A stretch of 64,000 nt of DNA from the NCBI GenBank assembly GCA_019635755.1, contig JAHBYW010000008.1, forward strand, positions 62,001-126,000. The letters run 5' to 3'. A model generated the notes under the pieces. That model was not told the origin of the DNA. It saw only the letters and a program-made list of their open reading frames with translations, and made no database searches. This DNA is from Rhizobiaceae bacterium (GTDB taxonomy: Bacteria > Pseudomonadota > Alphaproteobacteria > Rhizobiales > Rhizobiaceae). Of this stretch, positions 5,507-63,012 are shown piece by piece (position 1 is the stretch's first letter; each line of letters starts with the position of its first letter). A program made the position numbers and the translations under genes.

Positions 5507-5528
5507 GCCTCTCGAAGCGGAGCCCGCC

Positions 5529-6344: not shown

Positions 6345-6410
6345 CCGGGCGATCCGCTCGGCGAGCGACGAGGCGGGCGGCGCCTGGCCGCCCCTACCGC
6401 GAGGTTTCTG

Positions 6411-7169: not shown

Positions 7170-7253
7170 TCCTGACGTTTTATCTGATGAAACGAGATTG
7201 CACTGCCTGAACGCGCGACCGCATCGGGCAAGCACGTAAGTTGACGGCGAGGC

Positions 7254-37617: not shown

Positions 37618-37638
37618 TCCGGCACGCTGTACAGTCAG

Positions 37639-37666
37639 GGTCGTGGCCGGTCCGCCGGCCACGACC
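37639..37666 (+). terminator. Intercistronic hairpin after the Liv-type binding-protein gene
   Basis: GGTCGTGGCCGG (37639-37650), loop TCCG and CCGGCCACGACC (37655-37666) form a perfect 12-bp stem without a following T-run. It lies between the binding-protein stop and the first permease start, and probably protects the upstream message or reduces read-through, favouring binding-protein excess. Confidence 0.55.
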
Positions 37667-37692
37667 GTCCGTTGCCTCAAGTCAGTGCTGAC

Positions 37693-38613: not shown

Positions 38614-38615
38614 CG

Positions 38616-41075: not shown

Positions 41076-41078
41076 ACC

Positions 41079-45280: not shown

Positions 45281-45291
45281 TGGAGCGTGAC

Positions 45292-46731
45292 ATGAGCGGC
45301 ATCGAGCCCGGCCTGCTGATCGGCGGAGAGTTCAGGAGCTCGACCGGGAGTCCGCGCGCCGAGGTGATCAATCCTTGCACCGAGGAGGTGCTGTGGACGG
45401 CGCCTGCGGCAGGAGCGGCGGAGGTGGCCGAGGCGCTGGCGCATGCGCGCGCGGCGTTGCGAAGCTGGTCGGCCGTGCACGGCTGGGAGCGCGGCAAGGT
45501 GCTGCGCGGCATCGCCCGCGCAATGGAGCGGCGCAAGGGCGAGATCGCGCGTGCCCTGTCGCTCGAGATCGGACGGCCGCTGTCGCAGTCCGAAGGAGAG
45601 GTCAACATCGCCATCGAGCAGTTCGACTGGTTCGCGGGCGAGGCCGAACGTCTGTTCGGGGAGACGATCCCGTCGCGGCAGGGCGGCCGTCTGCAGGCGG
45701 TGCCCGAGCCGGTCGGCATCGTTGCCGCCTTCACCGCCTGGAATTTTCCGGTCAACCTGATCGCGCGCAAGATCGCGCCGGCGCTGGCTGCCGGCTGCCC
45801 GATCATCTGTCGGCCGTCCGAGCAGACGCCGCTGACCTCGACCCTGATCGCGCTCGCCTGCGTCGAAGGTGGCGCGCCGGCCGGCGTGGTGCAGATGCTG
45901 CACGGCCGCGCCGACATCGTGACGCCGCTGCTGATGGAGGCGGAAGAGGTCCGCAAGATATCGCTGACCGGCTCCACCCGCGTCGGCAAGATGCTGCTGG
46001 CGCAGGCCGCACAGACGGTCAAGCGCGCCTCGATGGAGCTCGGGGGGCATGCGCCCGTCGTGGTCTGCGAGGATTCCGACGTGGACGCTGCCGCCGCGCA
46101 ATGCGCGGCCTTCAAGTACCGCAATGCCGGGCAGGTCTGCATCGCGCCGAACCGCTTCTATGTGCATGAGGCGGTGGCCGAGCGCTTCGCCGAAGGCATG
46201 GTTTCCGCCGCGAAGGCACTGGTGCTGGGCGACAGCCAGGACGCGTCGACGACGATGGGGCCGCTGACGCTGGCCTCGCAGCGCGACCGCGTCGAGGCGC
46301 TGTGCGCGGAGACCGTCGCGGATGGCGCGCGCTGCCTGACGGGCGGCCGACGGCCGGCGAGCCGCAACAAGGGCTACTTCTTCGAGCCGACGGTGCTGGC
46401 CGACGTTCCCGACGGTTCGCGCATCATGCGCGAGGAGCCGTTCGGGCCGCTGGCGCCGATCGCCACGTTTCGCGACCTGGACGACGCCATCGAGCGTGCC
46501 AACTCGACGCCGTACGGCCTCGCCGCCTATGCCTTCACGCGCAGCCAGAAGAAGGCCGACGCGCTGAGCCGGGGCCTGCGGTCCGGAATGGTCGGCATCA
46601 ACACGTTCATGATCGCGCATGCCGAGGCGCCGTTCGGCGGCGTCAACCACTCCGGGATGGGTCGCGAGGGCGGCAGGCAGGCGATCCACGACTACCTGAA
46701 CGTCAAGATGACCCATTTCGTGGCCGCATAG
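45292..46731 (+). CDS. Aldehyde dehydrogenase family protein
   Basis: A 479-residue NAD(P)-dependent aldehyde dehydrogenase. The catalytic cysteine is in NAGQVCIAPNRF, the general-base glutamate in MELGGHAPVV, and TAWNFPVNLIARKIAPALAAGC is the family core. ATG 45292 has GGAG at 6 bases; ATG 45280 overlaps the dehydratase stop and would add four residues. It is of the semialdehyde-dehydrogenase type and could oxidise alpha-ketoglutarate semialdehyde or a similar product at the end of the sugar-acid pathway. It is the last gene of the operon. Confidence 0.92.
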   Translation: MSGIEPGLLIGGEFRSSTGSPRAEVINPCTEEVLWTAPAAGAAEVAEALAHARAALRSWSAVHGWERGKVLRGIARAMERRKGEIARALSLEIGRPLSQSEGEVNIAIEQFDWFAGEAERLFGETIPSRQGGRLQAVPEPVGIVAAFTAWNFPVNLIARKIAPALAAGCPIICRPSEQTPLTSTLIALACVEGGAPAGVVQMLHGRADIVTPLLMEAEEVRKISLTGSTRVGKMLLAQAAQTVKRASMELGGHAPVVVCEDSDVDAAAAQCAAFKYRNAGQVCIAPNRFYVHEAVAERFAEGMVSAAKALVLGDSQDASTTMGPLTLASQRDRVEALCAETVADGARCLTGGRRPASRNKGYFFEPTVLADVPDGSRIMREEPFGPLAPIATFRDLDDAIERANSTPYGLAAYAFTRSQKKADALSRGLRSGMVGINTFMIAHAEAPFGGVNHSGMGREGGRQAIHDYLNVKMTHFVAA

Positions 46732-46967: not shown

Positions 46968-47621
46968 CTAGCCCTTGCCGCGGATCGTCGCCCCGGTCAT
47001 GTCCTGAAGCTCGTCGATGCCGAGACCCGGAACCGCTTCGACCAGCTCGAAACCCGACACGGAAACGTCGAACACGGCGACGTTGGTGTAAACGCGGCTG
47101 ACGCAGGCAAGGCCGGTCAGCGGATAGGTGCAGCGCTCGACGAGCTTTGGCTCGCCGCTCTTCGTCGTCTGGTCCGTCATGATCCAGAGCCGCTGCGCGC
47201 CGGCGCACAGGTCCATCGCACCGCCGACGGCGGGTGGCATGGCGTCGTCCAGTGTCGCCCAGTTGGCCAGGTCTCCGTTCTCGGCGACCTGGAACGCGCC
47301 CAGCACGCAAAGGTCGATATGTCCGCCCCGGATCATGCCGAAGCTGTCAGCGTGATGGACGATCGCGCCGCCGGTGACCAGGGTCACATACTGCTTGCCC
47401 GCGTTCACAAGCCAAGGATTGACGGCATCTGGCTTCGGCTGGGGCCCCATGCCGACAATGCCGTTCTCCGAGTGTATGATCACATCCTTGCCGGCCGGAA
47501 TGTGGTCGGAGACCAACGTCGGCATGCCGATGCCGAGATTGACGTACCAGCCCTCCGGAATGTCGCGCGCCACGCGCGCCGCCATCTCTGTTCGCGACAG
47601 GGGTTTCCAGCTCTGGCCCAT
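46968..47621 (-). CDS. CoA-transferase subunit B (3-oxoacid type)
   Basis: A 217-residue beta subunit of a family I CoA transferase. The catalytic glutamate is in HSENGIVGMGP, and GWYVNLGIGMPTLV and the GGAMDLCAGA segment are family signatures. It pairs with the A subunit 9 bases upstream. The enzyme would move CoA between succinyl-CoA or acetyl-CoA and a carboxylic acid such as a 3-oxoacid, which fits the surrounding acyl-CoA pathway. Confidence 0.92.
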   Translation of the reverse strand: MGQSWKPLSRTEMAARVARDIPEGWYVNLGIGMPTLVSDHIPAGKDVIIHSENGIVGMGPQPKPDAVNPWLVNAGKQYVTLVTGGAIVHHADSFGMIRGGHIDLCVLGAFQVAENGDLANWATLDDAMPPAVGGAMDLCAGAQRLWIMTDQTTKSGEPKLVERCTYPLTGLACVSRVYTNVAVFDVSVSGFELVEAVPGLGIDELQDMTGATIRGKG

Positions 47622-47630
47622 GGATGGTTC

Positions 47631-48305
47631 CTACTTCGGGTCGCCGTACGGGATGTGCACGACCCGGTTCACGAAGATGCTGGGGGTCGCGATCGCATTC
47701 GGTTCGAGGCTGCCGAGGTCCACCTTGTGCTGGACCTGCGCGATCGTCAGCTTGGCGGCAGTGGCCATGACCGGATTGAAGTTCCGGCCGGCTTCCTTGT
47801 AGGTCAGATTGCCCCAGCGGTCGCCTTGCCAGGCTTCGATCAGCGCGACGTCGGCGTGCAGGGCGCGCTCGAAAACATAGTGGCGCCCCTCGAACTCGCA
47901 GGTCTCCTTGCCCTCGGCGAGCTTCGTTCCATAGGCGGTCGCCGTGTAGAATCCGGCCACGCCCGCGCCGCCCGCGCGGATGCGCTCCGCCAGCGTTCCC
48001 TGCGGCACGAGTTCAAGTTCGATCTCGCCCTTCTTGTAGAGTTCGTCGAAGACCACGGGATCGGCGGTGCGGGGAAAGGAGCAGACGACCTTGCGCACCC
48101 GGCGCAGCTCGAGAAGGCGCGCCAGGCCCGCGCGGCCGATGCCCGCATTGTTGGCGACGATGGTCAGTCCGGTCGCGCCCTGTTCGATGAGGGCGTCGAT
48201 GAGGTGGACGGGTTGACCAACCCCGAAGCCGCCGATCATCACCGTCGATCCGTCGCGAACGTCCGCAACGGCTTCGGTCACTGACGACACAAACTTGTCG
48301 ATCAT
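47631..48305 (-). CDS. CoA-transferase subunit A (3-oxoacid type)
   Basis: A 224-residue alpha subunit. The CoA-binding glycine motif is STVMIGGFGVGQPVHLIDAL (part of the start), with ELVPQGTLAERIRAGGAGV and GDRWGNLTYKEAGRNFNP later, as in PcaI/ScoA/AtoD-type proteins. It starts at ATG 48305 and is followed by subunit B. The 138-base gap to the enoyl-CoA hydratase upstream suggests that it may have its own promoter within the - operon. Confidence 0.92.
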   Translation of the reverse strand: MIDKFVSSVTEAVADVRDGSTVMIGGFGVGQPVHLIDALIEQGATGLTIVANNAGIGRAGLARLLELRRVRKVVCSFPRTADPVVFDELYKKGEIELELVPQGTLAERIRAGGAGVAGFYTATAYGTKLAEGKETCEFEGRHYVFERALHADVALIEAWQGDRWGNLTYKEAGRNFNPVMATAAKLTIAQVQHKVDLGSLEPNAIATPSIFVNRVVHIPYGDPK

Positions 48306-48443: not shown

Positions 48444-49232
48444 TCAGCGATCGAGGAAGCGTGGCTTGCGATGTTCCAGGAAGGCGCTCACGCCTTCGCC
48501 GCTGTCCTTGCTGGCAACCAACTCGGCCGACAGCGCCTGGGCATCGAGATAGGCTTCCATCCAGGTGCGGCCTTCGAGGCCGACAGATGCGATTTTGCGG
48601 GCGCGGATGGAGGGCAAGCTTTTCGACGCAATCTGCGTTGCGATGTCGAGCGCCTTCGCAAGCACGTCCTGGCGGGGCACGACGTAGTTGAAGAACCCGG
48701 TCGGTTCGAGCTCGCGCGCCGTGAACTTGCGTCCCGTGAAAAGGATCTCCCGGACCTTCGCTTCCGGCAGCTTCAGCCAGGAGAAGAGACCAGCGCCACC
48801 GCCGACCAGGCCGTAGTCGATCTCAGGGCAGGCGAACCGGGCGTCCTCCGCGGCAACCCGCATGTCGCAAAGGCCGGCAAGCACCATTCCGATGCCGATC
48901 GCCGCGCCGTTGATCGCTGCGATCACCGGTCGGTCGAGGCGATAGAAGGCTGGGACCTGCTCATTGATGAAGCGGTAGCGTTCCTTGCGTTTGGCGGTGT
49001 CCATGCCGACGAAATCGTTGAGATCGGCGCCGCCGCACCACGCTCTGGAGTTGTCAGGAGCGGTCAGGACGACAACGCGAACACCGCTGTCCGCTTCGAG
49101 AAGGCCGACAAGGCGGCCGATATCTTCGTAAACCGACAACGAGACCGCATTGACCGGTGGCCGGTAGAACGTGACGACGGCAATGCCGTTGTCGGCGACA
49201 TCGACTTCGAAAGAACCCACAGTCATTGCCAT
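48444..49232 (-). CDS. Enoyl-CoA hydratase/isomerase family protein
   Basis: A 262-residue crotonase-fold protein. The oxyanion-hole segments are SRAWCGGADLNDF and NGAAIGIGMVLAGLCDMRVA. At the usual hydratase glutamates the sequence reads ARFACPEIDYGLVGGGAG, where one glutamate (E in PEID) is kept and the second is not obvious. It may be a hydratase, isomerase or hydrolase. It lies in the - operon with the CoA transferase, TetR regulator, SDR and MaoC-type genes. Confidence 0.9.
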   Translation of the reverse strand: MAMTVGSFEVDVADNGIAVVTFYRPPVNAVSLSVYEDIGRLVGLLEADSGVRVVVLTAPDNSRAWCGGADLNDFVGMDTAKRKERYRFINEQVPAFYRLDRPVIAAINGAAIGIGMVLAGLCDMRVAAEDARFACPEIDYGLVGGGAGLFSWLKLPEAKVREILFTGRKFTARELEPTGFFNYVVPRQDVLAKALDIATQIASKSLPSIRARKIASVGLEGRTWMEAYLDAQALSAELVASKDSGEGVSAFLEHRKPRFLDR

Positions 49233-49309: not shown

Positions 49310-50062
49310 TCAGCCGTCGGCCTTGCGTCGACGCGAGCCCGGCTTGGTGTCACCGTCCGGCTCGAACCCGAGCAGCGCGTTCATCGTACGGTCGACAATC
49401 GACACGATCGCCTTCATCAGGTCGCGCGGCTTGCGGTACAGCAGCCAGGTGATGATCACCTGGTTGACGCTGCCGTTGAGGATTGCGGCGGTCTCATAGG
49501 GGTCTGAACCGGCAGGCCACTCGCCCCGCATTTCGCCCTGCCTGATCAGATAGATGATCACGCGCACATAGTCGTTGATCGAATGCCGCACCGCCGTCTC
49601 GCTGACCAGCACACTCGGCCAGATCTCGAGATAAAGCGTCCGTGCCCACTCCGGATTTCGCCGTGCGAAGTCCGCCGCGAGCCACAGATAGGTCCTCAGC
49701 CGTTCGCGCGAGGTGTGCTTGTCCGCAACGGCTTCGCCATACTCCGTGTAGAAACGGGCGAGATGTGCCGTGGGAACGGCGTAGGCCAGGTTCTCCTTGC
49801 TGGGAAAATACTCGTAGATCGAGGAGACCGGCATGCCGGCCTCGGAAGCGATGTCGCCGATTCGTGCTCGGGAAATGCCGTCTCTGGCGAAAACCCGAAG
49901 CGCGGCGCGCAGGATCTCCTGCTCCCGTCGCTTGCTCCGGTCCTGCTTTCGCTCCCCCGTATCAGCCGTCCAGCGCTCGATCACGGCAGCGAGAAATTCG
50001 TTCCAGCCGTCATTCGACTCTGGTCCAGTACGGTCAGCGGCAGACTTGTCCAGCATGGTCAT
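49310..50062 (-). CDS. TetR-family transcriptional regulator
   Basis: 250 residues. The DNA-binding domain is preceded by about 45 extra residues, then REQEILRAALRVFARDGISR and ASEAGMPVSSIYEYFPSKENLAYA form the TetR helix-turn-helix. The ligand domain resembles that of FadR/PsrA-type acyl-CoA sensors in position, not clearly in sequence. It is inside the - operon of the acyl-CoA island and is the best candidate regulator of the divergent 51769-52201 promoter region. Confidence 0.9.
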   Translation of the reverse strand: MTMLDKSAADRTGPESNDGWNEFLAAVIERWTADTGERKQDRSKRREQEILRAALRVFARDGISRARIGDIASEAGMPVSSIYEYFPSKENLAYAVPTAHLARFYTEYGEAVADKHTSRERLRTYLWLAADFARRNPEWARTLYLEIWPSVLVSETAVRHSINDYVRVIIYLIRQGEMRGEWPAGSDPYETAAILNGSVNQVIITWLLYRKPRDLMKAIVSIVDRTMNALLGFEPDGDTKPGSRRRKADG

Positions 50063-52201: not shown

Positions 52202-53320
52202 ATGCCGGCAAATCGGGTTGCAGTTATCTCTTCGACTCAAACTGAGTTGCGCGGAAACTGGAGCGGGGCGCAGCACATCGACCTGATCGCCGCAGTGGTC
52301 ACGGATGTCTTCAAGGGCACGGGGCTGACGCTCGACGACGTCGATTTCGTGTTCGATTCCGGCAGCGACGTGCTCGACGGCCGCTCGATCTCGAACTGCG
52401 GTTTCCTGGGCGCGATGGGTGCGCACCACAAGGAAGAATCCCGGATCGAGGAAGACGGGCTGTGGGCGGCGCTCTACGGCGTCACCAAGATCGCCTCCGG
52501 CGCCGCAAATGTGGGCCTGATCATCGCCTACTCCAAGCCGTCCGAATCCGACCCGAACGCCTTCTACAAGTCTCAGGTCGAACCGTTCTATCAGCGCCCG
52601 GTGGGCTTCGATCATCGCGCCGCGAGCGGCATCCAGGCGCAGCGTTACCTTGCCGACCACGGCGTGTCGGAGAAGCAGCTGGCGGGGTTGGTGTCGAACC
52701 GTTGGGCGTCCGCATCCGCCGGTCGCCGCGTCCCCCTCGACGCCGTTCCCGACGAACGCGAGGTGCTGGCGTCGCCGAGCGTCGCCCGTCCGCTAACCCA
52801 ACTGATGATGTCGCGTCCGACGGACGGCGCTGTGGCGATCCTGATCGCGTCCGAAGACATTGCGCGACGCACCGCCAAGACGCCCGTCTGGATCACCGGC
52901 ATGGGCATGTCCGGCGACAGGCACTCTTTCGCCACCCGCAAGGCGGGCACGCTTGAAGCGTGTGAGGCGGCGGCGACGTCGGCATTCAAGCAAGCCGGAT
53001 GGTCCAAGCCCACGCCGGCCGTCGCCGAGACCAGCGCGTCTTCGGCCGTGACCGAACTGATGGTGCTCGAAGCGATCGGACTCGCCAGGCCGGGCAAGGG
53101 GCTCGATCTGACCGGCGACGGCAAGATCGCGGTGAACAAGTCCGGCGGTTCGCTGCCGGCCGATCCCATCATGGCGACGGGCCTTGTGCGCCTCGCGGAA
53201 GCGTCGCGGCAACTGGTCTATCCCGCCGAGTACGGATTGAAGTCGCCGACTACGGCGATCGCGCACGGCGCGGGTGGTGTCGGCATGCAGACGCACTGCG
53301 TCTTCACTCTGGAGGTTTGA
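52202..53320 (+). CDS. Thiolase-fold protein without the nucleophilic cysteine (Ltp2/SCP2-thiolase-like), chain 1
   Basis: 372 residues of the SCP2-thiolase family. The fold is clear (RVAVISSTQTELRG start, GANVG-like IASGAANVGLIIAYSK at about 97-112, NKSGG at 312-316). Aligning the segment before IASG with the usual CASG shows EEDG at 83-86, so the cysteine is glutamate. The usual GHP near the C-terminus reads ADP (320-322), and the second cysteine position is also changed. It cannot act as a classical thiolase alone. It heads the + operon and pairs with chain 2, whose gene starts 5 bases after its stop. Confidence 0.88.
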   Translation: MPANRVAVISSTQTELRGNWSGAQHIDLIAAVVTDVFKGTGLTLDDVDFVFDSGSDVLDGRSISNCGFLGAMGAHHKEESRIEEDGLWAALYGVTKIASGAANVGLIIAYSKPSESDPNAFYKSQVEPFYQRPVGFDHRAASGIQAQRYLADHGVSEKQLAGLVSNRWASASAGRRVPLDAVPDEREVLASPSVARPLTQLMMSRPTDGAVAILIASEDIARRTAKTPVWITGMGMSGDRHSFATRKAGTLEACEAAATSAFKQAGWSKPTPAVAETSASSAVTELMVLEAIGLARPGKGLDLTGDGKIAVNKSGGSLPADPIMATGLVRLAEASRQLVYPAEYGLKSPTTAIAHGAGGVGMQTHCVFTLEV

Positions 53321-53325
53321 TCGTC

Positions 53326-54477
53326 ATGGGTCGTCATGTCGGTATTGTTGGCGTCGGTCAGACCAATCATTCGCGTCGCCGCACGGACGTCAGCCAGGCA
53401 GGGCTCGTGCGCGAGGCCGTGGATCGGGCTCTCGCGGATGCCAAGCTCACCATCGAGGACATCGACTCGGTCGTCGTGGCGACCGGGCCCGTGCTGTTCG
53501 CCGCCGTCAACCAGCCGGAGAAGTGGGTCGTCGACGCGATCGGCGCCTCGCTGAAGCCGGTCGTGCGCATCACATCCGGCGGCGGCACCGGACTGGCCGG
53601 CGCTCTTGCCGGCTACTACCAGGTCTCCAGCGGCTTCGCCGATCGGGTGCTTGTGGTGGCCTACGACAAGCTGTCGGAAGGTGCCCTGCAGTACTCGATC
53701 TCGACTCTGTACGATCCCTTCTGGGGCCGCGAGTTCGCCGTCGGCATCATGGGATTCTCGGCCGCCTACTGGCGCGCGCGAATGGATGTGCTCGGTCACA
53801 CCGAAGAAGCTGCGGCAATGGTTGCGGTCAAGAACCGCAAGAATTCCATGAACAATCCCTACGCTCACGTGAAGAAGGAGGTGACGGTCGAGGACGTCAT
53901 GAACTCCAAGCCGCTCGCCTGGCCGATCAAGACGCTGGACGTTCCGCCGATCTCGGACGGTGCCGCCGCGATCGTTCTGTCCACCGAAAAACTCGCCGCC
54001 AAGTCCACCGACCGCCCGGCCTGGATTCATGGAATGGGCTATTTCTGCGAGGCCGACAACGCGCCGGAGCGATCGCTTCTCGTATCCGAGCCGCTGGCCA
54101 TCGCTGCGCGCCGTGTCTATCGCGCCGCGGGCATCACCAATCCGCGGCGGCAGTTCGATGTGGTCGAGGTGCAGGAACCCTATACCTGCTTCGAGCTCAG
54201 CTATTATGAGAGCCTCGGCCTTTGCGCGCCGGGCGAAGCGGCCGAGCTGATCGAGTCCGGCGCAACGCAGATGACCGGCGACATTCCCGTCAATCCATCC
54301 GGCGGCTGTGCCGGAGCCAATCCGATCGGTGCGGCGGCGCTGATCAGGCTGATCGAGGCGGCTTCGCAGGTCATGGGCAAGGCCGGCGACATGCAGGTTC
54401 CCGGCGCAAAACTGGCGCTGGCCCAGGCCGGTGGCGGCTGGGCCAATCTTCGCGGCGTCGCCGTGGTCGGCGCCTGA
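53326..54477 (+). CDS. Thiolase-fold protein without the nucleophilic cysteine, chain 2
   Basis: 383 residues of the SCP2-thiolase/Ltp2-like family. It has HVGIVGVGQTNHSRR at the start, ASGxxDxV-type VSSGFADRVLVVAYDKLSEG at 100-119 and NPSGGCAGANPIGAA at 323-337. The position of the nucleophilic cysteine is glycine (GGTG at 86-89), the GHP histidine is asparagine (ANP, 331-333) and the C-terminal cysteine is lost (ALAQAGGG). Such cysteine-free members include the steroid aldolase Ltp2, which works with a DUF35 partner. GGAGG lies 10 bases before ATG 53326. Confidence 0.88.
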   Translation: MGRHVGIVGVGQTNHSRRRTDVSQAGLVREAVDRALADAKLTIEDIDSVVVATGPVLFAAVNQPEKWVVDAIGASLKPVVRITSGGGTGLAGALAGYYQVSSGFADRVLVVAYDKLSEGALQYSISTLYDPFWGREFAVGIMGFSAAYWRARMDVLGHTEEAAAMVAVKNRKNSMNNPYAHVKKEVTVEDVMNSKPLAWPIKTLDVPPISDGAAAIVLSTEKLAAKSTDRPAWIHGMGYFCEADNAPERSLLVSEPLAIAARRVYRAAGITNPRRQFDVVEVQEPYTCFELSYYESLGLCAPGEAAELIESGATQMTGDIPVNPSGGCAGANPIGAAALIRLIEAASQVMGKAGDMQVPGAKLALAQAGGGWANLRGVAVVGA

Positions 54478-54488
54478 GGGAGGAAGAG

Positions 54489-55436
54489 ATGCTTTCCATT
54501 CCGGACACCTACCCGATCGACCTGAAGCCGTTCCCGAGCGACCTGTCGATGCCATACACGCTGACCCCCGGGCGGGCGGCGGGAATCTTTCTCGCCGAGA
54601 TCGGCAACAAGCGCATCGTCGGCTCCAGGTTCCGGGACGGCGGCACGGTGGCTGTGCCGGCTCAGGACTTCTGCCCGAAGACCGGCGACAGCGAGTTCGA
54701 TCTCGTCGAAGCGCCTTCGACCGGCACGCTGAACGCCTTCACAGAGACCGAAGCGGGGATCATCGGACTGATCCGCATCGATGGGTCCGACTTCGATTTT
54801 CCCCATCAGATCGTCGACGCTGGCTATGACGATCTGACGGTCGGCGACCGGGTCGAGGCAGTATGGGGCGAAGGTGCCGGCGAAAGCATCCTCGGCATCA
54901 AAGGCTTCAAGCCATCGCCGAAGGCCCCGGTCGGGTCGATCAAGCCACTGGAGAACCCCGCCAAGCAGGTCGAGGTTGTCCCCTACAGGATGGACCTCCA
55001 CTACGAACATGCCTTCGGCCCGTATTACGGCAGGCTGTTCGACGAGATCAAGACCAACCGGCGCATCATGGGCGTGCGCACGTCGAACGGCGAGGGCGCG
55101 CTCCTGCCGCCCCGCGAACTGGATGACATCACCCACAAGAAGACCGGGACCTGGGTCGAGGTGAAGCAGACGGGCACCGTCCGAGCCTGCTCCGTCATCC
55201 ACCTGCAGTTCATCGGCCAGAAGCAGCCGCCGCCCTATATCTACGCCGAGATCATTCTCGATGGTGCGCTGACCCGCTTGATCCACAACATCTCCGGCAT
55301 CGACATGAGCCGCGCGAAGGAACTGGTGAAACCCGGTACGCGCGTGCGTGCTGTGTGGCGCGACGGCGAGCCGACGGGATCGCTGGCAGATATCTCGCAC
55401 TTCGAAGTGATCGGCGGCGAGGACGAGCGCAGCTGA
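54489..55436 (+). CDS. Tandem DUF35/OB-fold protein lacking zinc ligands
   Basis: 315 residues made of two successive DUF35 units, about 20-150 and 165-310. In unit 2, GRLFDEIKTNRRIMGVRTSNG, LLPPREL and the VEVKQTGTVRACSVIHLQF strand follow the DUF35 pattern, but the C-x-x-C pairs of the zinc ribbon are replaced (VRTSNG, ELDDITH). Unit 1 keeps one cysteine (QDFCPKTG). DUF35 proteins normally bind acyl-CoA and partner thiolases or aldolases. Coupling to both thiolase-like genes suggests a three-component complex. GGAGGAAG precedes ATG 54489. Confidence 0.82.
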   Translation: MLSIPDTYPIDLKPFPSDLSMPYTLTPGRAAGIFLAEIGNKRIVGSRFRDGGTVAVPAQDFCPKTGDSEFDLVEAPSTGTLNAFTETEAGIIGLIRIDGSDFDFPHQIVDAGYDDLTVGDRVEAVWGEGAGESILGIKGFKPSPKAPVGSIKPLENPAKQVEVVPYRMDLHYEHAFGPYYGRLFDEIKTNRRIMGVRTSNGEGALLPPRELDDITHKKTGTWVEVKQTGTVRACSVIHLQFIGQKQPPPYIYAEIILDGALTRLIHNISGIDMSRAKELVKPGTRVRAVWRDGEPTGSLADISHFEVIGGEDERS

Positions 55437-55468: not shown

Positions 55469-56293
55469 GTGTTCGAAATCCATACGCTTCGGCTTGGCGA
55501 ACTGCTCATCCCGCATGCGGGAGGGCTGCTTCGCGATCCGATTCACGCGTGGCTGGTGACCGACGGCAAGGTTCGCATCCTTGTCGACAGCGGCATGCCG
55601 GACGCTGCTGAGGTGAAGGCGAGGCTGAAGATCGACGGGACAGGCGGCGGGCAAGAATCGCTGCGCTCGGCGCTGGCCGAGGTCGGCACGACGCCGGATG
55701 CGATTGACTTCGTGGTGCCGACGCATCTGCATTTCGACCACGCCTGGAACCTCGACCTGTTTCCCAACGCCTGCGTCGTCATCCAGCGCGACGAGGTCTT
55801 CCATGCCATCGACCCTGCCCCGACGCAGCGGATCTACTACTTCAAGGAAACAGTGATCGCCTTTCTCCAGCGCAAGCGGCCATCGCAGTTCAGGCTTGTC
55901 GATGGCGATGTCGATCTGACCGACGGCATCAGCCTGATAAGGGCTCCGGGACATACGCCCGGCATGCAGGTCGTCGTTGTCACCACCGCGAAGGGCAAGG
56001 CGGCGCTGGTCTCCGATCTTGGCGACCACTACCGCTCGTGGTTCCCCGCGGACCCGCGCGCCACGCATACGCCGATGCGCTTCCTTGCCGACGGCTTCCT
56101 GCCGGGCGCGATCCGAAGCGAGAGCGAGCGGACCTACGTCGAGAGCATGGCCAGGGTGAAGGCGGCCTCCGACATCGTCGTGCCCGCACACGATTTCCGG
56201 ATACCGAGGCACATGCCGCGCGACTGGTTCTCCGGCCCGTCCTCGATCGATGACGACCTGACGCACATGTCTCCACCGAAGGCCGCCGGGTAG
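55469..56293 (+). CDS. MBL-fold metallo-hydrolase
   Basis: A 274-residue metallo-beta-lactamase-fold hydrolase. The zinc motif is THLHFDHAWN (H-x-H-x-D-H), with GHTPGMQ and VSDLGDHY supplying further ligands and PAHD near the C-terminus. It resembles lactonase and glyoxalase II-like branches. GTG 55469 follows GGGGGAGGAG. In this operon it may hydrolyse a lactone or a CoA thioester intermediate. Confidence 0.88.
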   Translation: MFEIHTLRLGELLIPHAGGLLRDPIHAWLVTDGKVRILVDSGMPDAAEVKARLKIDGTGGGQESLRSALAEVGTTPDAIDFVVPTHLHFDHAWNLDLFPNACVVIQRDEVFHAIDPAPTQRIYYFKETVIAFLQRKRPSQFRLVDGDVDLTDGISLIRAPGHTPGMQVVVVTTAKGKAALVSDLGDHYRSWFPADPRATHTPMRFLADGFLPGAIRSESERTYVESMARVKAASDIVVPAHDFRIPRHMPRDWFSGPSSIDDDLTHMSPPKAAG

Positions 56294-56297
56294 CGTC

Positions 56298-57839
56298 GTG
56301 GCAAACCTCGCTGATCATCTCTTCCGGCAGGCCCGCGAACGGGGTGTGAAGCGCGCGCTTGTCTTCGAGGGCGAGGAATACACATTCGGCGAGATCGCCG
56401 ACCGCGTGAGGCGCATCGCCGGCGGTCTTTCCGCGGCCGGTGTCGCGGTCGGAAGCCGCGTCGGCCTGATGATGCATTCGCGGCCCGAATTCATCTTCTT
56501 CCAGCAGGCGATCTTCGCGCTGGGCGCCGTGGTTTCGCCTCTCAATATCTTCTACCGACGCGGCGAACTCGCGCATGCGGTGTCGAGCTGCGACCTGCAG
56601 TTCCTGATCATCGCTGAAGAGTTTGTCGACCGGTTGCCTGCAGCCGGTACGCCCGGCATGGAGACGCTGAAGCGCGTTTTCGTTCTCGGCGCGGGCGCTC
56701 CATACGCCGACGATCGCCTGGTGTCCGCCGAGGATCTGCAGTCGACCGGAGTGCCGATCGATGCGTCGGTCCAGATTCCGGACTCCTCCGTCGGCATGAT
56801 GCTGAACACCAGCGCCACGACCGGCAAGGCGAAGGGCGTCATGCTGTCGCTCACCAACATCGGCTTCAACTACGACACGACGCCAGAATGGCTGGGACTG
56901 GACGAGAAGACGGTGACGCTCTGCGCGCTGCCGCTCTACAACACGTTCGGCCTCAATCAGTGCATCAACGCGCTCATGGTCACGGGCGGATCGATGGTGC
57001 TGATGCAGCGCTTCGATCCCGAGCAGTGCATCCGGCTGATCGAGCAATACCGCTGCACATTCTTTCCGGGTGTGCCGACGATGCTCCAGAAGCTGTTCGA
57101 CCATCCCGAAGCACGCAACCACGATCTCAGCTCCATCGCGCGGATCATGACGGGCGCCGCGCCAGTGCCGGCGGCGCTGCTCGAGCGCATCTACGCTTTC
57201 ATGGGCCGCGACACGGTGGTGATGACCGGCTACGGCCTCACCGAAGGCACTGCAATCGCCACGCTCGAGCACATCGAGCTTGACGACCAAGGCAAGGTGA
57301 AGCGGCCGAAATCGATCGGCCGGATCCTGCCTGGCGTCCAACTGAGGATGATCAAGGAAGACGGCAGCGACGCCGCGCCCGGAGAAGTCGGTGAGATCTG
57401 CCTGCGTGGCGCGAACGTCATGCTCGGCTACTACAAAATGCCGGACGACACGGCGGCGGCGCTCGCCGGCGGTTGGCTCCATACCGGCGACCTCGGCATG
57501 TTCGATGCCGACGGCCACGGATACATCGTCGACCGCAAGAAGGATGTCATCATCCGCGGTGGGCAGAACATCTATCCGGCCGACATCGAGGAAGTCATCT
57601 ACCATGTGCCCGGCGTCAGCGAGGTCGCAGTCATCGGTGCGCCCGACGATGCTCTGGGCGAGGTTCCGGTCGCCTATGTGGCGGTGAAAGCCGGCGCTAC
57701 CGTTTCCGCCGAAACGCTGATCGCCCGATGCAAGCAAGAGTTGGCCTATTTCAAGGTGCCTGCGGCAATTCACTTTCTCCCGGAATTGCCGAAGGGACCG
57801 ACCGGAAAGATCCTCAGGCGCGGGCTGCGATCGCAATGA
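56298..57839 (+). CDS. AMP-binding acyl-CoA synthetase with a variant P-loop
   Basis: A 513-residue ANL ligase starting at GTG 56298, 4 bases after the MBL stop. The C-terminal half is normal (TGYGLTEGTAIA, GWLHTGDLGMFD, DRKKDVIIRGGQNIYP, PTGKILRR with the catalytic lysine). The P-loop reads TSATTGKAKG (171-180) instead of TSGTTGxPKG, with alanine at two usually fixed places. It probably activates the carboxylic acid that enters the pathway, or a later free acid. Confidence 0.9.
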   Translation: MANLADHLFRQARERGVKRALVFEGEEYTFGEIADRVRRIAGGLSAAGVAVGSRVGLMMHSRPEFIFFQQAIFALGAVVSPLNIFYRRGELAHAVSSCDLQFLIIAEEFVDRLPAAGTPGMETLKRVFVLGAGAPYADDRLVSAEDLQSTGVPIDASVQIPDSSVGMMLNTSATTGKAKGVMLSLTNIGFNYDTTPEWLGLDEKTVTLCALPLYNTFGLNQCINALMVTGGSMVLMQRFDPEQCIRLIEQYRCTFFPGVPTMLQKLFDHPEARNHDLSSIARIMTGAAPVPAALLERIYAFMGRDTVVMTGYGLTEGTAIATLEHIELDDQGKVKRPKSIGRILPGVQLRMIKEDGSDAAPGEVGEICLRGANVMLGYYKMPDDTAAALAGGWLHTGDLGMFDADGHGYIVDRKKDVIIRGGQNIYPADIEEVIYHVPGVSEVAVIGAPDDALGEVPVAYVAVKAGATVSAETLIARCKQELAYFKVPAAIHFLPELPKGPTGKILRRGLRSQ

Positions 57840-57893: not shown

Positions 57894-58679
57894 GTGGCGT
57901 TTGAAACCATCCTCTATGACGTCGCCGATGGCGTCGCGACGGTCACCTTCAACCGTCCGGAGGCCATGAACGCCACGAACGACCAGTTCTATCGGGAAAT
58001 GCAGGGCCTCATCCGCGACATCGCGGCCGATGACGGGGTCGGAGCGGTCATCATTACCGGCGCGGGGCGTGCCTTCTGCGCCGGCGCGGACGTCAAGTCG
58101 ATGAACCCCGACATGCCGCTGCTCGCACGCCGCGCGCGTCACCGCTGGATCCTCGCCGACATCCTGAGGCCGCTGGTGAATCTGGAAAAGCCGGTCATCG
58201 CCGCAGTGAACGGACATGCAGTCGGCGCCGGTTTCAACATCGCGCTCGCAGCAGACATTCTGATCGCCAGCGAGACCGCGATCTTCAGCCAGATCTTCAC
58301 GAAGATGGGCCTGGTCCCGGACCTCGGCGGCCTGCACCTGCTCACGCGCGTTGTCGGGCTCAACAAGGCGAAGGAGCTTTGCTTCACGGCAAAGAAGATC
58401 AACGCGCAGGAAGCGCTTTCGCTCGGCATCGCCAACCACGTGGTTGCCGCCGACAGGCTGATGGACGAGGCGCGCAAGCTGGCCGGTGAGATCGCCGCCG
58501 GCCCGCCGACCGCGCTGGCCATGATCAAGACGCTGCTCAACAAGTCGTCCAATGCGACGCTGGATCAGATGCTCGAATACGAGAGCTACGCCCAGACGCT
58601 TGCCTATACGACGCCCGAGCACAAGGAAGGCGTCGCCGCCTTCCGCGAGAAACGCGCGCCCAACTTCAGGAAGGCCTGA
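57894..58679 (+). CDS. Enoyl-CoA hydratase/isomerase family protein
   Basis: A 261-residue crotonase-fold protein. It has VTFNRPEAMNATNDQFYREM at the start, AGRAFCAGADVKSMN and NGHAVGAGFNIALAADILIA for the oxyanion hole, and IFSQIFTKMGLVPDLGG in the usual catalytic-loop position, where the common glutamates are not both present. GTG 57894 follows AAGGAG with 8-base spacing. It acts on an acyl-CoA produced by the dehydrogenases encoded next. Confidence 0.92.
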   Translation: MAFETILYDVADGVATVTFNRPEAMNATNDQFYREMQGLIRDIAADDGVGAVIITGAGRAFCAGADVKSMNPDMPLLARRARHRWILADILRPLVNLEKPVIAAVNGHAVGAGFNIALAADILIASETAIFSQIFTKMGLVPDLGGLHLLTRVVGLNKAKELCFTAKKINAQEALSLGIANHVVAADRLMDEARKLAGEIAAGPPTALAMIKTLLNKSSNATLDQMLEYESYAQTLAYTTPEHKEGVAAFREKRAPNFRKA

Positions 58680-58681
58680 CA

Positions 58682-59872
58682 ATGGACTTCACCTACAGCG
58701 CCGAGGATCTGGCGTTCCGCGACGAGCTTCGGACGTGGCTCGCGGCCAACCTGCCGGCTGGCTGGGGTGAAACGGTCTTCGAGCCCGAGGACGAGGACGA
58801 GAACGCCATGTTCCGCCTCGATTGGGAGCGCAAGCTCCACAAGGGTGGCTGGAACGGGATCGCGTGGCCGCAGAAGTATGGCGGCCGCGGCGCGAGCCTC
58901 GTCGAACAGGCGATCTTCGCGGAGGAGATGGCGCGGGCACGCGCGCCGGAAGGCCTCAACATCATCGGCCGCAACCTCGTCGCGACGACGCTCCTGCATC
59001 ACGGTTCGGAGGAACAGAGGCAGCGCTACCTGCCGAAGATCATTTCCGGCGAGGAAGTGTGGTGCCAGGGCTTCTCCGAACCGAACGCCGGTTCCGACCT
59101 CGCCTCGGTGCGCTGCCGCGCGATTCGCGAGGGAGACCATTTCGTCGTGAACGGCCAGAAGATCTGGACGAGCTTCGCCCAGTATGCCCAGTGGTGCATC
59201 CTGCTGGCGCGGACCGACTCCACCCTGCCCAAGCACCAGGGCATCTCGTTCCTTCTGGTCGACATGTCGACGCCCGGCGTCTCGATCCGCCCGCTAAGGC
59301 AGATATCGGGCGAGAGCGAGTTCAACGAAACCTTCTTCGACAACGTGAAGGTGCCCGTCGCCAACCTCGTTGGCGACCTGAACGGCGGCTGGAAGATCGC
59401 CATGACGACGCTCACCTACGAGCGGGGCCCCGAAGATGCGCTCGGCCGTCAGATCCGCTTCAAGCAGGAGTTGGACACGCTGATCGATACCGCAGCGACG
59501 CTGAAGCGCGGCGCGTCGCCGGCGATCGACGACCCGACAGTGCGCCAGAAACTCGCCAAGGCCGTGGTCGAAGTTGAGATCATGCGGCTTAACTGCCTGC
59601 GCGCCTTCTCCAAGGCTCTGAAGGGCAAGCCCCGCGGACCGGAAGCGTCGATGAACAAGCTCTACTGGAGCCATGTGACGCAGAACATGTACGAGGCCGC
59701 CCTGGAGACGCTGGGACCGCTGGCGCCGCTCGACGGCGGCGATCCGCTGTCGCCGGCCGATGGACGATTCCAGCTCAGCTTCCTCCGGTCCAAGGCCTTC
59801 ACGATTTATTCCGGATCGTCCGAGATCCAGCGCAACATCATCGCCGAGCGCCTGCTCGGCATGCCGAAGTAG
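58682..59872 (+). CDS. Acyl-CoA dehydrogenase, chain 1
   Basis: A 396-residue flavoprotein dehydrogenase. N-terminal FRDELRTWLAANLPAGW, middle GFSEPNAGSDLASVRCRA (substrate/FAD region) and C-terminal SKAFTIYSGSSEIQRNIIAERLLG are typical of the FadE17/FadE28-like branch. It starts 2 bases after the hydratase stop. The second, different acyl-CoA dehydrogenase follows 7 bases later, an arrangement characteristic of heteromeric enzymes in sterol and cyclic-acid degradation. Confidence 0.92.
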   Translation: MDFTYSAEDLAFRDELRTWLAANLPAGWGETVFEPEDEDENAMFRLDWERKLHKGGWNGIAWPQKYGGRGASLVEQAIFAEEMARARAPEGLNIIGRNLVATTLLHHGSEEQRQRYLPKIISGEEVWCQGFSEPNAGSDLASVRCRAIREGDHFVVNGQKIWTSFAQYAQWCILLARTDSTLPKHQGISFLLVDMSTPGVSIRPLRQISGESEFNETFFDNVKVPVANLVGDLNGGWKIAMTTLTYERGPEDALGRQIRFKQELDTLIDTAATLKRGASPAIDDPTVRQKLAKAVVEVEIMRLNCLRAFSKALKGKPRGPEASMNKLYWSHVTQNMYEAALETLGPLAPLDGGDPLSPADGRFQLSFLRSKAFTIYSGSSEIQRNIIAERLLGMPK

Positions 59873-59879
59873 GCCTCCG

Positions 59880-61019
59880 ATGGACTTCGACTTCAGCGAC
59901 GAACAGTACATGTTCCAGCAGGCCACGCGTGGCCTGCTTGACAAGAGCTATGGCCTCGACCGCGTGCGCGCGCTGCTGGAGGGCGATGGCCTTGACCGGG
60001 AGCTCTGGACGAGCCTGACCGAAAGCGGCGCGTTTGCCATGTTGGTTCCCGAGGAACATGGCGGCATGGGGCTGAGCTTCGTCGACCTTTCGCTTGTTCT
60101 GGAGGAGTACGGCCGTTCGCTTGTGCCCGCTCCCGTTGCTGAGACGATCGCCGCGACCGACGTCATCGTCCGCCACGGCACGGCGGAGCAGGAGGAGAGG
60201 TTGCTTCCGCCGATCGCCGAAGGCAGGCTGAAGATCGTCCCCGCCGTGGCGGAAGCCGAGGCCGGATACGATCCGGAGGATATCGGTGTGACGGCGGTTC
60301 CTTCCGGCAACGGCTGGAAGGTCAGCGGGCGCAAGGTCCTGGTCCCGCACGCGGCGACCGCGGATCTGATCCTGCTCGCGATTCGTTTCGGCGAAGAAGG
60401 TTCGCTCGGCCTGGCGCTGATCGAACCCGATCGCGCCGGCATATCGCTGCGCGAACACGCGACGCTCGACCCTTCGAGCCGGTTCCATCAGCTCGATCTC
60501 GATGGCGTGACGATCGTGCGCGACGATATCGTCGGCGGCGAGCCCAGCGCCGCATCGGTGACGCGCCTGCTCGACGCGTGCGGCGTGGTCGCGGCGACGA
60601 TGATGACCGGCATCTCGGGCAAGGTGCTTGACCAAGCGGTGGGCTACGCGAAGCAGCGCACGCAATTCGACAAGCCGATCGGCTCGTTCCAGGCGATCAA
60701 GCATCGCTGCGCCGACATGGCGGTCGCGATCGACGCCAGCCGCTCCGCCGCCTATTACGCCGCCTGGGCGCTCGCCGAGGACGCACCCGATCGGAGGCGC
60801 GCGGTTTCCATGGCGAAATCCTATTGCGGCGATACCTCGCGCTTTGTCTGCAACGAAGGCATCCAGCTGCACGGCGGCATCGGCTTCACCTGGGAGCTCG
60901 GACTGCATTTCTACCTGCGCCGGGCAAAGGTGCTCGAGTATTCATATGGGGACGCGGCCTATCATCGTGAGCGTCTGCTGGCGGACACGATCCAGCAGAT
61001 CGGGGCGGGACGAGGCTGA
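59880..61019 (+). CDS. Acyl-CoA dehydrogenase, chain 2
   Basis: A 379-residue dehydrogenase more divergent than chain 1. It has FDFSDEQYMFQQATRGLL at the start, RTQFDKPIGSFQAIKHRCADM and QLHGGIGFTWELGLHFYLRR near the C-terminus. The middle FAD-contact region is weakly conserved (VPAVAEAEAGYDPEDIG). It could be the non-catalytic or FAD-sharing subunit of an alpha2beta2 enzyme with chain 1. Its stop overlaps the alcohol dehydrogenase start (TGATG). Confidence 0.9.
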   Translation: MDFDFSDEQYMFQQATRGLLDKSYGLDRVRALLEGDGLDRELWTSLTESGAFAMLVPEEHGGMGLSFVDLSLVLEEYGRSLVPAPVAETIAATDVIVRHGTAEQEERLLPPIAEGRLKIVPAVAEAEAGYDPEDIGVTAVPSGNGWKVSGRKVLVPHAATADLILLAIRFGEEGSLGLALIEPDRAGISLREHATLDPSSRFHQLDLDGVTIVRDDIVGGEPSAASVTRLLDACGVVAATMMTGISGKVLDQAVGYAKQRTQFDKPIGSFQAIKHRCADMAVAIDASRSAAYYAAWALAEDAPDRRRAVSMAKSYCGDTSRFVCNEGIQLHGGIGFTWELGLHFYLRRAKVLEYSYGDAAYHRERLLADTIQQIGAGRG

Positions 61020-62059
61020 TGCGGGCGATCGTGCTTCCCGGGTTTGGCGGCCCGGGCGTCTTCTCCTGCGAGGAAGTCGAGCGGCCTCGGCCTGCTGCAG
61101 ACCAGATGCTGGTGAAGGTTGCTGCCTGCGGGGTCTGCGGACACGACCTGCTCAATCGCGCCGGACATTTCCCGCACACGAAGCTGCCGGCGGTGATGGG
61201 CCACGAGATCGCCGGCACGGTCATCGAGACCGGAACCCTGGTCACGCGCTTTAAGCCGGGCGACCGTGTGGCCGTCATCCAGCGCCTGCCCTGCGGGCTG
61301 TGTTCGCTCTGCCGCGCGGGACGCGAGAACCTGTGCGTTTCCGGACCGGGTTTCTACGGCGAGGAGGTCTCGGGAGGGTACGGAGAGTACGTCGTCGCGT
61401 CCGAGCGCAACGCGACCCTCGTTCCGGCGAGCATTCCGCTCAAGGTCGCCGCCGTGCTGAGCTGCGCCATCGGCACCGGCTTTCATGCCTTGCGGCGTGC
61501 CGCGCTTCAACTGAACGACGCGGTGGTGATCACCGGTGCCAGCGGTGGCGTGGGCATCCACACCGTCAAGCTGGCGAGACTGCTTGGCCTGCGCACGATC
61601 GCCATCTCCTCCTCGGAGTCAAAAGTCGAGCGGCTGCGCAGCGCCGGTGCGACCGACATCATCGTGTCGCCCGACATGAATTTTCATCAGAAGGTAAGGG
61701 CGATGACCGGGGGCGAGGGCGCCGACGCCGTCATCGAAATCGCCGGGAAGCCGACGTTCGGTTCCTCGGTGCGTTCGCTTCGCGCCGGCGGCAGGATGGT
61801 CATCGTTGGGAATGTCGATCCCGGCAGCGTCCCGCTCAACCCGGCCATGTCGATCCTCAAGGAGCTCGATTTCATCGGCAGCGCGCATGCGACGCTCGCC
61901 GACCTGAAGAAGGTGATCGATCTCGTCGCGCGTGGCGACATCGAGCCCGAGATCGCCGCTTTCCTGCCCATGGAGAAGGCGGCGGAGGCGCACGCCGCGA
62001 TGGAGGACCGCTCGACCTCGGGTCGCGTCGTGCTCACGTACCAGGGTAGCGACGGCTGA
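61019..62059 (+). CDS. Zinc-dependent alcohol dehydrogenase family protein
   Basis: A 346-residue MDR dehydrogenase. The catalytic zinc region is CGVCGHDLLNRAGHFP and MGHEIAGTV; the structural zinc cysteines are in LPCGLCSLCRAGRENLC; the nucleotide-binding motif is VITGASGGVGIHTVKLA. Both zinc sites look intact. It probably oxidises an alcohol or hydroxyacyl intermediate. It is coupled to both flanking genes by one-base overlaps. Confidence 0.92.
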   Translation: MRAIVLPGFGGPGVFSCEEVERPRPAADQMLVKVAACGVCGHDLLNRAGHFPHTKLPAVMGHEIAGTVIETGTLVTRFKPGDRVAVIQRLPCGLCSLCRAGRENLCVSGPGFYGEEVSGGYGEYVVASERNATLVPASIPLKVAAVLSCAIGTGFHALRRAALQLNDAVVITGASGGVGIHTVKLARLLGLRTIAISSSESKVERLRSAGATDIIVSPDMNFHQKVRAMTGGEGADAVIEIAGKPTFGSSVRSLRAGGRMVIVGNVDPGSVPLNPAMSILKELDFIGSAHATLADLKKVIDLVARGDIEPEIAAFLPMEKAAEAHAAMEDRSTSGRVVLTYQGSDG

Positions 62060-63012
62060 TGACGGGGCGCGCCTCGTCGAGGACTGAAGAGGTTGACGTC
62101 CGCGGCATCCGCTATTCGGTCCGCAAATGGGGATCGGACAGCGCAGCGCCGATCATCTTCCTGCACGGCACGCAGGATAGTTCGATTACCTTCCAGTTCA
62201 TGGTCGAACAGTTGCGCGGCGACTGGTGTGTCGTCGCGCCCGACTGGCGCGGGCATGGCCATTCCCAATGGTCGAACCAGGGATACTGGTTCCACGATTT
62301 CGTCGCCGACCTCGCTGTCCTTCTGGATATCCTGTTTCCCGGCCAGGCTCTTCCGTTTGTCGGCCACAGCATGGGCGGCAACATCGCAAGCGTCTACGCG
62401 GGTCTGGCTCCCGAACGCGTGGCGCGTTGCGTATCGCTGGATGGCTTCGGTCCCCTGACCAGCATGGTGCCCGCCAACATGCGTCAGGTGCTGACGCGGC
62501 TGCTGGCGTTGCCGAAACTGGCCCGCACCCATGCCAGCTATCCGGGCATCGATGCTGCGGCCGACCGGCTCATGAAGAAGAATCCGATATTGGCGCGCCA
62601 CCACGCGATGTTCCTGGCGGAGCACTCGACCGCGGATGATGGGAAGGGCGGCCGCCGCTGGATCTTCGACCCGTCCCATCAGATGTCGTTGCCAAGCCTG
62701 CATACGATGCAGGAATGGGCCGACGCATGGGCGGACATAACGGCGCCGGTCCTGTGGATCTGCTCCGAGGACAAGCGTCCCTTCGCGCCAACGGCCGTAC
62801 CCGGCGAACTGGACCGGCGAGCCGCGATGATGCCCCGGCTGAAGCGGGTGCTCATTCCCGGAACCGGCCACAACATCCATCACGATTCGCCGGCGCTCGC
62901 CGCGCGGCTTGCGGAACGGTTCATCGCCGATCCGGACGATCCCGTCTTCGACCGTCGCGTCATCCGCAAGGTGGCCGAGGTCGACGGGGCGGGCGGCGCT
63001 CCGAGCACCTGA
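62059..63012 (+). CDS. Alpha/beta hydrolase
   Basis: A 317-residue alpha/beta-fold hydrolase. It has the oxyanion-hole segment IIFLHGTQDS, nucleophile serine in VGHSMGGNIAS, probable acid in LWICSEDKRPF and the histidine in GTGHNIHHD. There is no signal peptide. It may hydrolyse a ring-cleaved beta-diketone, ester or thioester, and is the last enzyme of the + operon before the promoter at 63065. Confidence 0.9.
   Translation: MTGRASSRTEEVDVRGIRYSVRKWGSDSAAPIIFLHGTQDSSITFQFMVEQLRGDWCVVAPDWRGHGHSQWSNQGYWFHDFVADLAVLLDILFPGQALPFVGHSMGGNIASVYAGLAPERVARCVSLDGFGPLTSMVPANMRQVLTRLLALPKLARTHASYPGIDAAADRLMKKNPILARHHAMFLAEHSTADDGKGGRRWIFDPSHQMSLPSLHTMQEWADAWADITAPVLWICSEDKRPFAPTAVPGELDRRAAMMPRLKRVLIPGTGHNIHHDSPALAARLAERFIADPDDPVFDRRVIRKVAEVDGAGGAPST

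Follow-up and report, generated by a model that had tools for sequence, protein, structure and literature searches.

Two cysteine-less thiolase-fold proteins and a double DUF35 protein of a Rhizobiaceae bacterium: a divergent relative of the Ltp3-Ltp4 loci

Described relatives and the three genes of the window

Ltp3 and Ltp4 have been described as aldol lyases that act on sterol side chains branched at C24 (PMC8708139, PMC7807495, PMC6593523, PMC4761994), and a review presents Ltp3-Ltp4 as a heteromeric aldol-lyase cleaving C24-C25 (PMC6678751). The Ltp2 and Sal complexes comprise a thiolase-fold dimer with a DUF35 domain on either flank (PMC12329534, PMC11321319), and in the Ltp2 dimer the two DUF35 chains bridge the protomers (PMC11321319). 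Catalysis depends on Tyr294 of the YDHF motif and Tyr344 in TcLtp2, and on Tyr302 and Cys304 in CtSal (PMC12329534). The subject of this report is a set of three adjacent genes (A, B and C) in a stretch of 64,000 nucleotides from a Rhizobiaceae bacterium (assembly GCA_019635755.1, contig JAHBYW010000008.1, positions 62,001 to 126,000), hereafter the window, whose own numbering is used. The set codes for two thiolase-fold proteins without the classical catalytic residues and for a double DUF35 protein; it belongs to a conserved operon, its missing residues are missing across a whole family, and it is kin to the Ltp3/Ltp4-type loci. The three products may form one heteromeric enzyme of that kind.

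Chain A (52202..53320, + strand, 372 residues) is an Ltp4/PRK07937-like thiolase-fold protein with Glu83-x-Asp85-Gly at the nucleophile elbow. Chain B (53326..54477, + strand, 383 residues) is an Ltp3/PRK08313-like thiolase-family protein with Gly86 at the nucleophile column; the longest listed open reading frame in its frame begins upstream at 52999. Gene C (54489..55436, + strand, 315 residues) comprises two fused DUF35 units, approximately residues 16-150 and 168-310, the longest open reading frame in its frame beginning at 54222. The intergenic gaps are 5 bases (A-B) and 11 bases (B-C). In Pfam, Thiolase_C_1 was identified in both chains and Thiolase_N in chain B, whose domains are over the cut-offs, and OB_ChsH2_C (DUF35) was identified over two stretches of the gene C protein (whole-protein score 68.5 bits). 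PF01796 also matches gene C twice, the second unit with 49.5 bits and the first with 24.8 (cut-off 27.1). Thiolase_C_1 occurs in this genome only in chains A and B and in a canonical-looking paralogue, L017; it is also carried by an Ltp2 and a Sal-like protein.

At the nucleophile motif, CxxG in thiolases, chain A has EEDG (residues 83-86) and chain B GGTG (86-89), and the GHP positions are ADP in chain A (320-322) and ANP in chain B (331-333), the four motifs being those read in a first-pass annotation of the same DNA. The HDCF equivalent is SASS in chain A and QEPY in chain B, and the YDHF/YDCY motif of the Ltp2/Sal aldolases is absent. The hallmarks of SCP2 thiolases (nucleophile Cys, GHP His) are thus missing from both chains, and both are present in L017. 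Chain A, with cysteines at 66, 254 and 366, has neither Cys nor His at the catalytic columns. Chain B has cysteines at 241, 288, 300 and 328, where C288 lies in the HDCF loop and C328 in the NPSGG loop, and neither of these two aligns with the nucleophile, HDCF-Cys or GHP-His column. Gene C, with cysteines at 62 and 234, contains no CxxC in either unit; C62 is the only cysteine in the ribbon regions, and the earlier description of two DUF35 units with nearly all ribbon cysteines gone holds.

Structures were predicted for chain A and gene C, and the fold of chain B was judged from its Pfam domains. The chain A model (predicted local distance difference test score, pLDDT, 86; predicted template modelling score, pTM, 0.90; 27-sequence alignment) places E83-D85 directly N-terminal to helix 86-98, the expected site of the nucleophile elbow. 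In fold it comes closest to the archaeal acetoacetyl-CoA thiolase (6et9/6esq, Z 48), while Sal (9myr, Z 41.3) and Ltp2 (6ok1, Z 39.4) score lower. The gene C model comprises two confident domains of uncertain relative placement (pLDDT 86, pTM 0.50), the first of which superposes on DUF35 chains (Z 12.1 to 6ok1_D and 12.0 to 9myr).

The family of A-B-C loci

One genome per species was scanned with a chain B alignment, giving 232 confirmed loci; the best 80 were analysed, so rare variants may be missed. Within these 80, A adjoins B in 79 and the double DUF35 was identified in 77 (59 fused, 18 as two genes). Exceptions are L063, L096 and L099 (lacking C, and in L099 also A), every one at a contig end. 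Most of the loci belong to actinobacteria; Deltaproteobacteria/Myxococcales account for some, and Chloroflexi and Rhodospirillales for one each, the latter a metagenome-assembled genome (L024). In a plasmid collection the three genes lie together, in the order C-A-B, in records of Tsukamurella, Nonomuraea, Nocardia and Streptomyces clavuligerus; when four loci of that collection are counted in, the double DUF35 is fused in 63 and split in 18. The combination of A, B and a double DUF35, proposed by the first-pass annotation as a new architecture, is already widespread in actinobacteria, and the proposal was rejected on this survey.

The gene order of the window is A-B-C, and among the best 80 loci C lies downstream of B only in L024. 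Without L024, identity to these loci is 38-46% for the window chain B (79 rows) and 26-31% for chain A (76 rows). Searches with chain A gave two weak matches besides its own in 397 genomes of the order (limit E 1e-25), G914 at 72% and G1078 at 31% in 385 genomes of the class, and only G914 among 191 relatives of G914 (E 1e-40). Searches with chain C gave, besides its own, four matches to single units in 201 relatives and none in 398 genomes of the phylum (E 1e-20); the genome draws overlap. The A-B pair of the window is a divergent sister of the Ltp3/Ltp4-type pairs, present in two further genomes as part of a conserved CoA-catabolic operon: L024 and L112, the latter from the window's class. 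More distant thiolase-pair loci were seen in L015, L016, L011 and L012, with no Cys at either nucleophile column; DUF35 genes lie near the L015, L011 and L012 pairs and a partial DUF35 match in L016. The cysteine-less type of pair is therefore broader than Ltp3-Ltp4.

Active-site columns were compared by aligning 86 A rows jointly with 93 B rows, L017 standing among the latter as control. A rows shorter than 280 residues were dropped (L063, L096 and L099 give none), and L112 and L114, found later, are part of no residue count. The nucleophile Cys is missing in 86/86 A rows and 92/92 B rows, the control being the sole row that has it; the loss in chains A and B is no chance event and is common to the family. 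The column holds Glu in 83 of the 86 A rows (Pro, Asp and Ser in the remainder), in a register that hinges on an adjoining alignment gap, and, once the control is set aside, Gly in 91 of 92 B rows and Cys in none. The HDCF-His column is His in 78/86 A rows; in B rows it is Tyr in 88/92, Gln in three (window, L024 and L016) and Phe in one. The GHP-His column is Asn in 91/92 B rows and 73/86 A rows. In the printed 6ok1 sequence, counted by hand, the YDHF and AYIHG tyrosines take the HDCF-His and GHP-His positions; most B chains of the family therefore carry Tyr at the position of the Ltp2/Sal base, where the window has Gln283. In the window, L024 and L112, chain B keeps QEPYTC and NPSGGC, with both C288 and C328, and chain A keeps EEDG, its HDCF column varying (S, S, G).

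The best NCBIfam models are PRK07937 for chain A (163.2 bits, cut-off 419) and PRK08313 for chain B (366.3 bits, cut-off 514); the scores of L024 (193.3 and 373.3 bits) are likewise under the cut-offs. Both chains are over them in L008 (Tsukamurella), in L009 and in L043 (A 568.6, B 714.7 bits) from Pimelobacter simplex, a species also named Nocardioides simplex. The divergent gene upstream in L043 is F420_Rv3520c (TIGR03559, 481 bits, cut-off 335), and a homologue is found divergent and upstream in 15 of the best 80 loci, L043 included. In the published annotation Rv3520c is an F420-dependent oxidoreductase, Rv3521 a conserved hypothetical, ltp4 is Rv3522 and ltp3 Rv3523 (PMC6429209), the gene order being deduced from the locus numbers; in Nocardioides simplex ltp4 (KR76_14280) neighbours ltp3 (KR76_14285) (PMC7807495). 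Since the L043 chains are over the cut-offs and adjoin the F420_Rv3520c gene, the actinobacterial A and B that were scored fit the Rv3520c-Rv3521-ltp4-ltp3 context and the places of Ltp4 and Ltp3 in it, a link that rests on context and family model.

In a tree, A (SH-aLRT 90) and B (75) each form one branch side, apart from a set supported by 99 (starred) that comprises Ltp2, Sal-like proteins and SCP2 thiolases. The tree, which covers 70 rows, was built quickly and has several long branches, so that only its coarse split is trustworthy. By alignment no cysteine stands on either nucleophile column and by this tree neither chain clusters with the SCP2 thiolases, Ltp2 or the Sal-like set, so the non-thiolase reading made at first pass stands. 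Ltp2-ChsH2, the relative named there, is more distant than Ltp3-Ltp4.

The DUF35 units were compared after splitting the fused C proteins at their midpoint, a crude procedure applied to motifs, hidden Markov models (HMMs) and tree alike. In the 59 fused proteins of the best 80 loci, CxxC was identified in no first half and in 56 second halves, the exceptions being L024, L060 and L081; in the two-gene loci the count is 0/18 for the first gene and 14/18 for the second. The first unit is therefore probably zinc-free family-wide, and the window type appears to have lost also the second-unit site usual in the family. In the Nocardia tandem proteins L060 and L081 the second unit has no CxxC either, suggesting more than one loss of the site.

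A swap of unit order in the window relative to actinobacterial C proteins is hinted at by motifs and BLAST averages, in which the window first unit resembles the actinobacterial second unit (U2) rather than the first (U1). The HMM scores of the window first unit are in line with a swap (63.1 bits for U2, 53.2 for U1), whereas those of its second unit are not (78.5 for U2, 73.0 for U1). In the tree the window first unit pairs with U2 at 89/80 (not starred), and approximately unbiased (AU) tests reject neither the swapped (p 0.52) nor the collinear order (p 0.52-0.67); the constrained trees slightly outscored the free tree, the search thus not being exhaustive. The window second unit falls in one group (96/91, starred) with four single DUF35 genes from other loci of thiolase pairs. 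Locus L114 of the same class (5430-7368) has a chain B with Tyr (YEPT), 47% identical to that of the window; behind it lie two separate DUF35 genes, of which the first resembles the window second unit and the second the window first unit, a possible pre-fusion state. From this grouping and the separate genes of L114, an independent fusion in the window type is likely.

Operon and genome context

Downstream of C, all on the + strand, lie genes for a metallo-beta-lactamase-fold hydrolase (55469..56293), an acyl-CoA ligase type protein under all curated cut-offs (56298..57839), an enoyl-CoA hydratase/isomerase type protein (57894..58679), two acyl-CoA dehydrogenase type proteins (58682..59872 and 59880..61019, the latter of uncertain start codon), a zinc-type alcohol dehydrogenase/reductase (61019..62059) and an alpha/beta hydrolase (62059..63012). 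On the - strand, divergent from A, lie a TetR-family regulator (49310..50062, start codon uncertain) and a second enoyl-CoA hydratase/isomerase type protein (48444..49232). L024 and L112 share this arrangement from the second hydratase to the second dehydrogenase, at which the L024 locus ends; the alcohol dehydrogenase and alpha/beta hydrolase are kept in L112. In both the hydrolase of the metallo-beta-lactamase fold stands beside C and the regulator adjoins A, whereas in the window MaoC and short-chain dehydrogenase/reductase (SDR) genes sit between the regulator and A. No MaoC, SDR or CoA transferase gene was found in the 13 kb of L024 or the 18 kb of L112 (E 1e-20).

Other neighbours were seen in the window. 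The subunits A and B of a 3-oxoacid CoA-transferase lie at 46968-48305 (TIGR02429 and TIGR02428, over cut-off). Genes for an L-arabinonate dehydratase (1006.9 bits, cut-off 882) and, next to it, a semialdehyde-type dehydrogenase occupy 43634-46731; they are preceded by a branched-chain-type ABC transporter (36322-41702), a GFO/IDH/MocA gene and an SDR gene, and the group resembles a sugar-acid catabolic cluster. The L024 operon is adjoined (L024 695-2874) by genes for a cupin protein and a branched-chain-type periplasmic binding protein, neighbours that may point to an aromatic or a branched acid as substrate.

Among the best 80 loci, acyl-CoA ligase-like genes were identified near 54 and enoyl-CoA hydratase-like genes near 44, with best identities mostly of 32-35%, whereas the two acyl-CoA dehydrogenases have relatives near only 6 and 5 of these loci and the hydrolase near 1. 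Ltp2 was present in all four genomes hand-picked from these loci, L100 matching 6ok1 at E 2.6e-189. By a search for Ltp2, no sterol side-chain context was seen in the window's genome.

Proposed reaction and comparison with known systems

The reading favoured here, with modest confidence, is that the three products assemble into a single heteromeric enzyme of the Ltp3-Ltp4 type, in which an A-B pseudo-dimer is bridged by two DUF35 units and B cleaves a bulky beta-hydroxyacyl-CoA by a retro-aldol reaction. A and B would pair as a thiolase-type pseudo-dimer, and the two units of C would span it, one on each side, in the manner of the separate DUF35 chains on Ltp2 and Sal homodimers; by analogy, the double DUF35 beside the A-B pair may be an asymmetric version of the Ltp2/DUF35 layout. 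Chain B would be catalytic, and since Gly replaces the nucleophile Cys no acyl-enzyme would form there. It would bind the beta-hydroxyacyl-CoA and split its C-alpha/C-beta bond, giving a carbonyl compound and a shortened acyl-CoA. Chain A would be a non-catalytic or acid-contributing partner that gives space for a bulky or branched substrate, which the neighbouring ligase, the two acyl-CoA dehydrogenases and the enoyl-CoA hydratase would produce. A division of this sort is described for ChsH1-ChsH2, which acts at the adjoining step of the pathway and comprises a catalytic and a non-catalytic MaoC chain, the latter modified to accommodate steroid rings (PMC11321319). The three-gene complex with non-thiolytic cleavage postulated at first pass gains support at the level of genes: A, B and C are conserved as a unit, their active sites are not those of thiolases, and Ltp3 and Ltp4, the closest relatives in the literature, are described as aldol lyases.

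Conservation would suit chain B as the catalytic chain, since it exceeds chain A and all shared operon genes: B is 86% identical to L024 (10 genes shared) and 90% to L112 (12 genes), the other shared proteins reaching 56-73% and 52-83%. B is also more alike than A in 3655/3655 pairs of 86 loci (means 68% and 56%), although these pairs share one phylogeny and are not independent. This dependence weighs against the proposal, as do several other points. Both chains fall short of the NCBIfam cut-offs, and the Tyr of the Ltp2/Sal base is Gln in the window, L024 and L112. The window's genome lacks Ltp2 (the best PRK07855 match is chain B itself, 131.9 bits, cut-off 469), and therefore the substrate is probably not a classical sterol side chain. 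The role of Ltp3-Ltp4 is itself cited as genetic characterisation, and in M. neoaurum deletion of ltp3 or ltp4 left the formation of 4-HBC going (PMC10398937). In the open-licence literature searched no enzymology of Ltp3-Ltp4 was found, and ltp4 and DUF35 co-occur in a single paper, passages of which tie DUF35 to other aldolases. The papers that describe the aldol-lyase role cite Wilbrink 2012.

A possible, if doubtful, alternative is that the thiolase scaffold here carries some other C-C or CoA activity, that of a decarboxylase, a hydratase or a condensing enzyme, with residues other than the Ltp2/Sal Tyr, such as Glu284, Tyr286, Cys288 and Cys328 of B or Glu83 and Asp85 of A. It draws on the Gln in place of the base Tyr in all three window-type B chains together with their conserved QEPY, C288 and C328, on the limitation of the two cysteines to the window and L024 among the 92 B rows, on the missing Ltp2 and on the homologue TbSLP, which decarboxylates malonyl-CoA with a very low kcat (PMC12329534). 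However, where a role has been published for the nearest relatives it is that of an aldol lyase, and by our own reading of the printed 6ok1 sequence Ltp2 likewise has Gly at the nucleophile column. Tentative and rather unlikely is a window-type active site of composite nature unlike that of Ltp2 and Sal, in which Glu83/Asp85 of A and the QEPY loop of B would serve as acid-base in a zinc-free two-chain C-C lyase acting on a non-steroid bulky acyl-CoA.

Strict orthology to Ltp3-Ltp4, with cleavage of C24-branched sterol side chains, is very unlikely. The same three-part set, the kinship and the frequent ligase-like and hydratase-like neighbours agree with it; against it stand the sub-threshold family scores, Gln for the Tyr of chain B, the lack of an Ltp2 that all four picked genomes possess and the rarity of the dehydrogenase and hydrolase relatives elsewhere. 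A thiolase after all, with C288 or C328 as nucleophile, is highly improbable: the two residues are conserved in three orthologues, but neither stands at a known catalytic column, each is missing from 90/92 B rows and the GHP and HDCF histidines are also gone. Degenerate or non-catalytic proteins, for instance lipid carriers, as database names such as 'lipid-transfer protein' and the lost classical residues could suggest, are scarcely probable given intact reading frames, a kept gene order and a chain B 86-90% identical between genomes, above every other shared operon protein.

The heteromeric aldol-lyase reading is thus retained, and the earlier interpretation is partly supported. The window type looks like an unusual bacterial form, rarely met, of an established class of C-C-splitting enzyme; its active-site residues are changed, and its substrate is probably a different one. 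The family survey yields testable statements: that B is catalytic, that the Cys position of A is now a conserved Glu, and that one particle holds the two DUF35 units as separate components. The variant suggests that the Ltp3-Ltp4 machine moved to another pathway, its acid-base residues altered and its zinc lost.

Three groups of known systems come closest. The Ltp3-Ltp4 loci share adjacent cysteine-less thiolase-family genes, a double DUF35 and Gly (B) and Glu (A) at the nucleophile column. They differ in gene order (C-A-B, against A-B-C in the window), in the HDCF column of A (His, replaced by Ser or Gly in the window type), in the Tyr that is Gln283 in the window chain B, in the CxxC that the second DUF35 unit of the window lacks and in the operon partners. 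Ltp2-ChsH2 (6ok1) and Sal-Shy (9myr) have in common with the window set the thiolase fold, a non-thiolase active site, a DUF35 partner and, as proposed here, retro-aldol chemistry; however, Ltp2 and Sal are homodimers of one chain with YDHF/YDCY motifs and Tyr or Gln at the GHP-His position, their DUF35 partners carry zinc, and Ltp2 and Sal-like proteins group with SCP2 thiolases, away from A and B. The third group comprises the PhlABC/MucABC acyltransferases and the archaeal thiolase/HMG-CoA synthase complex (6esq/6et9), also multi-component assemblies of thiolase-superfamily and DUF35 chains, each with two different thiolase-superfamily chains. These possess the nucleophile Cys, named as C88S in the title of a related entry, and their chemistry, going by the entry titles, is acyl transfer or condensation.

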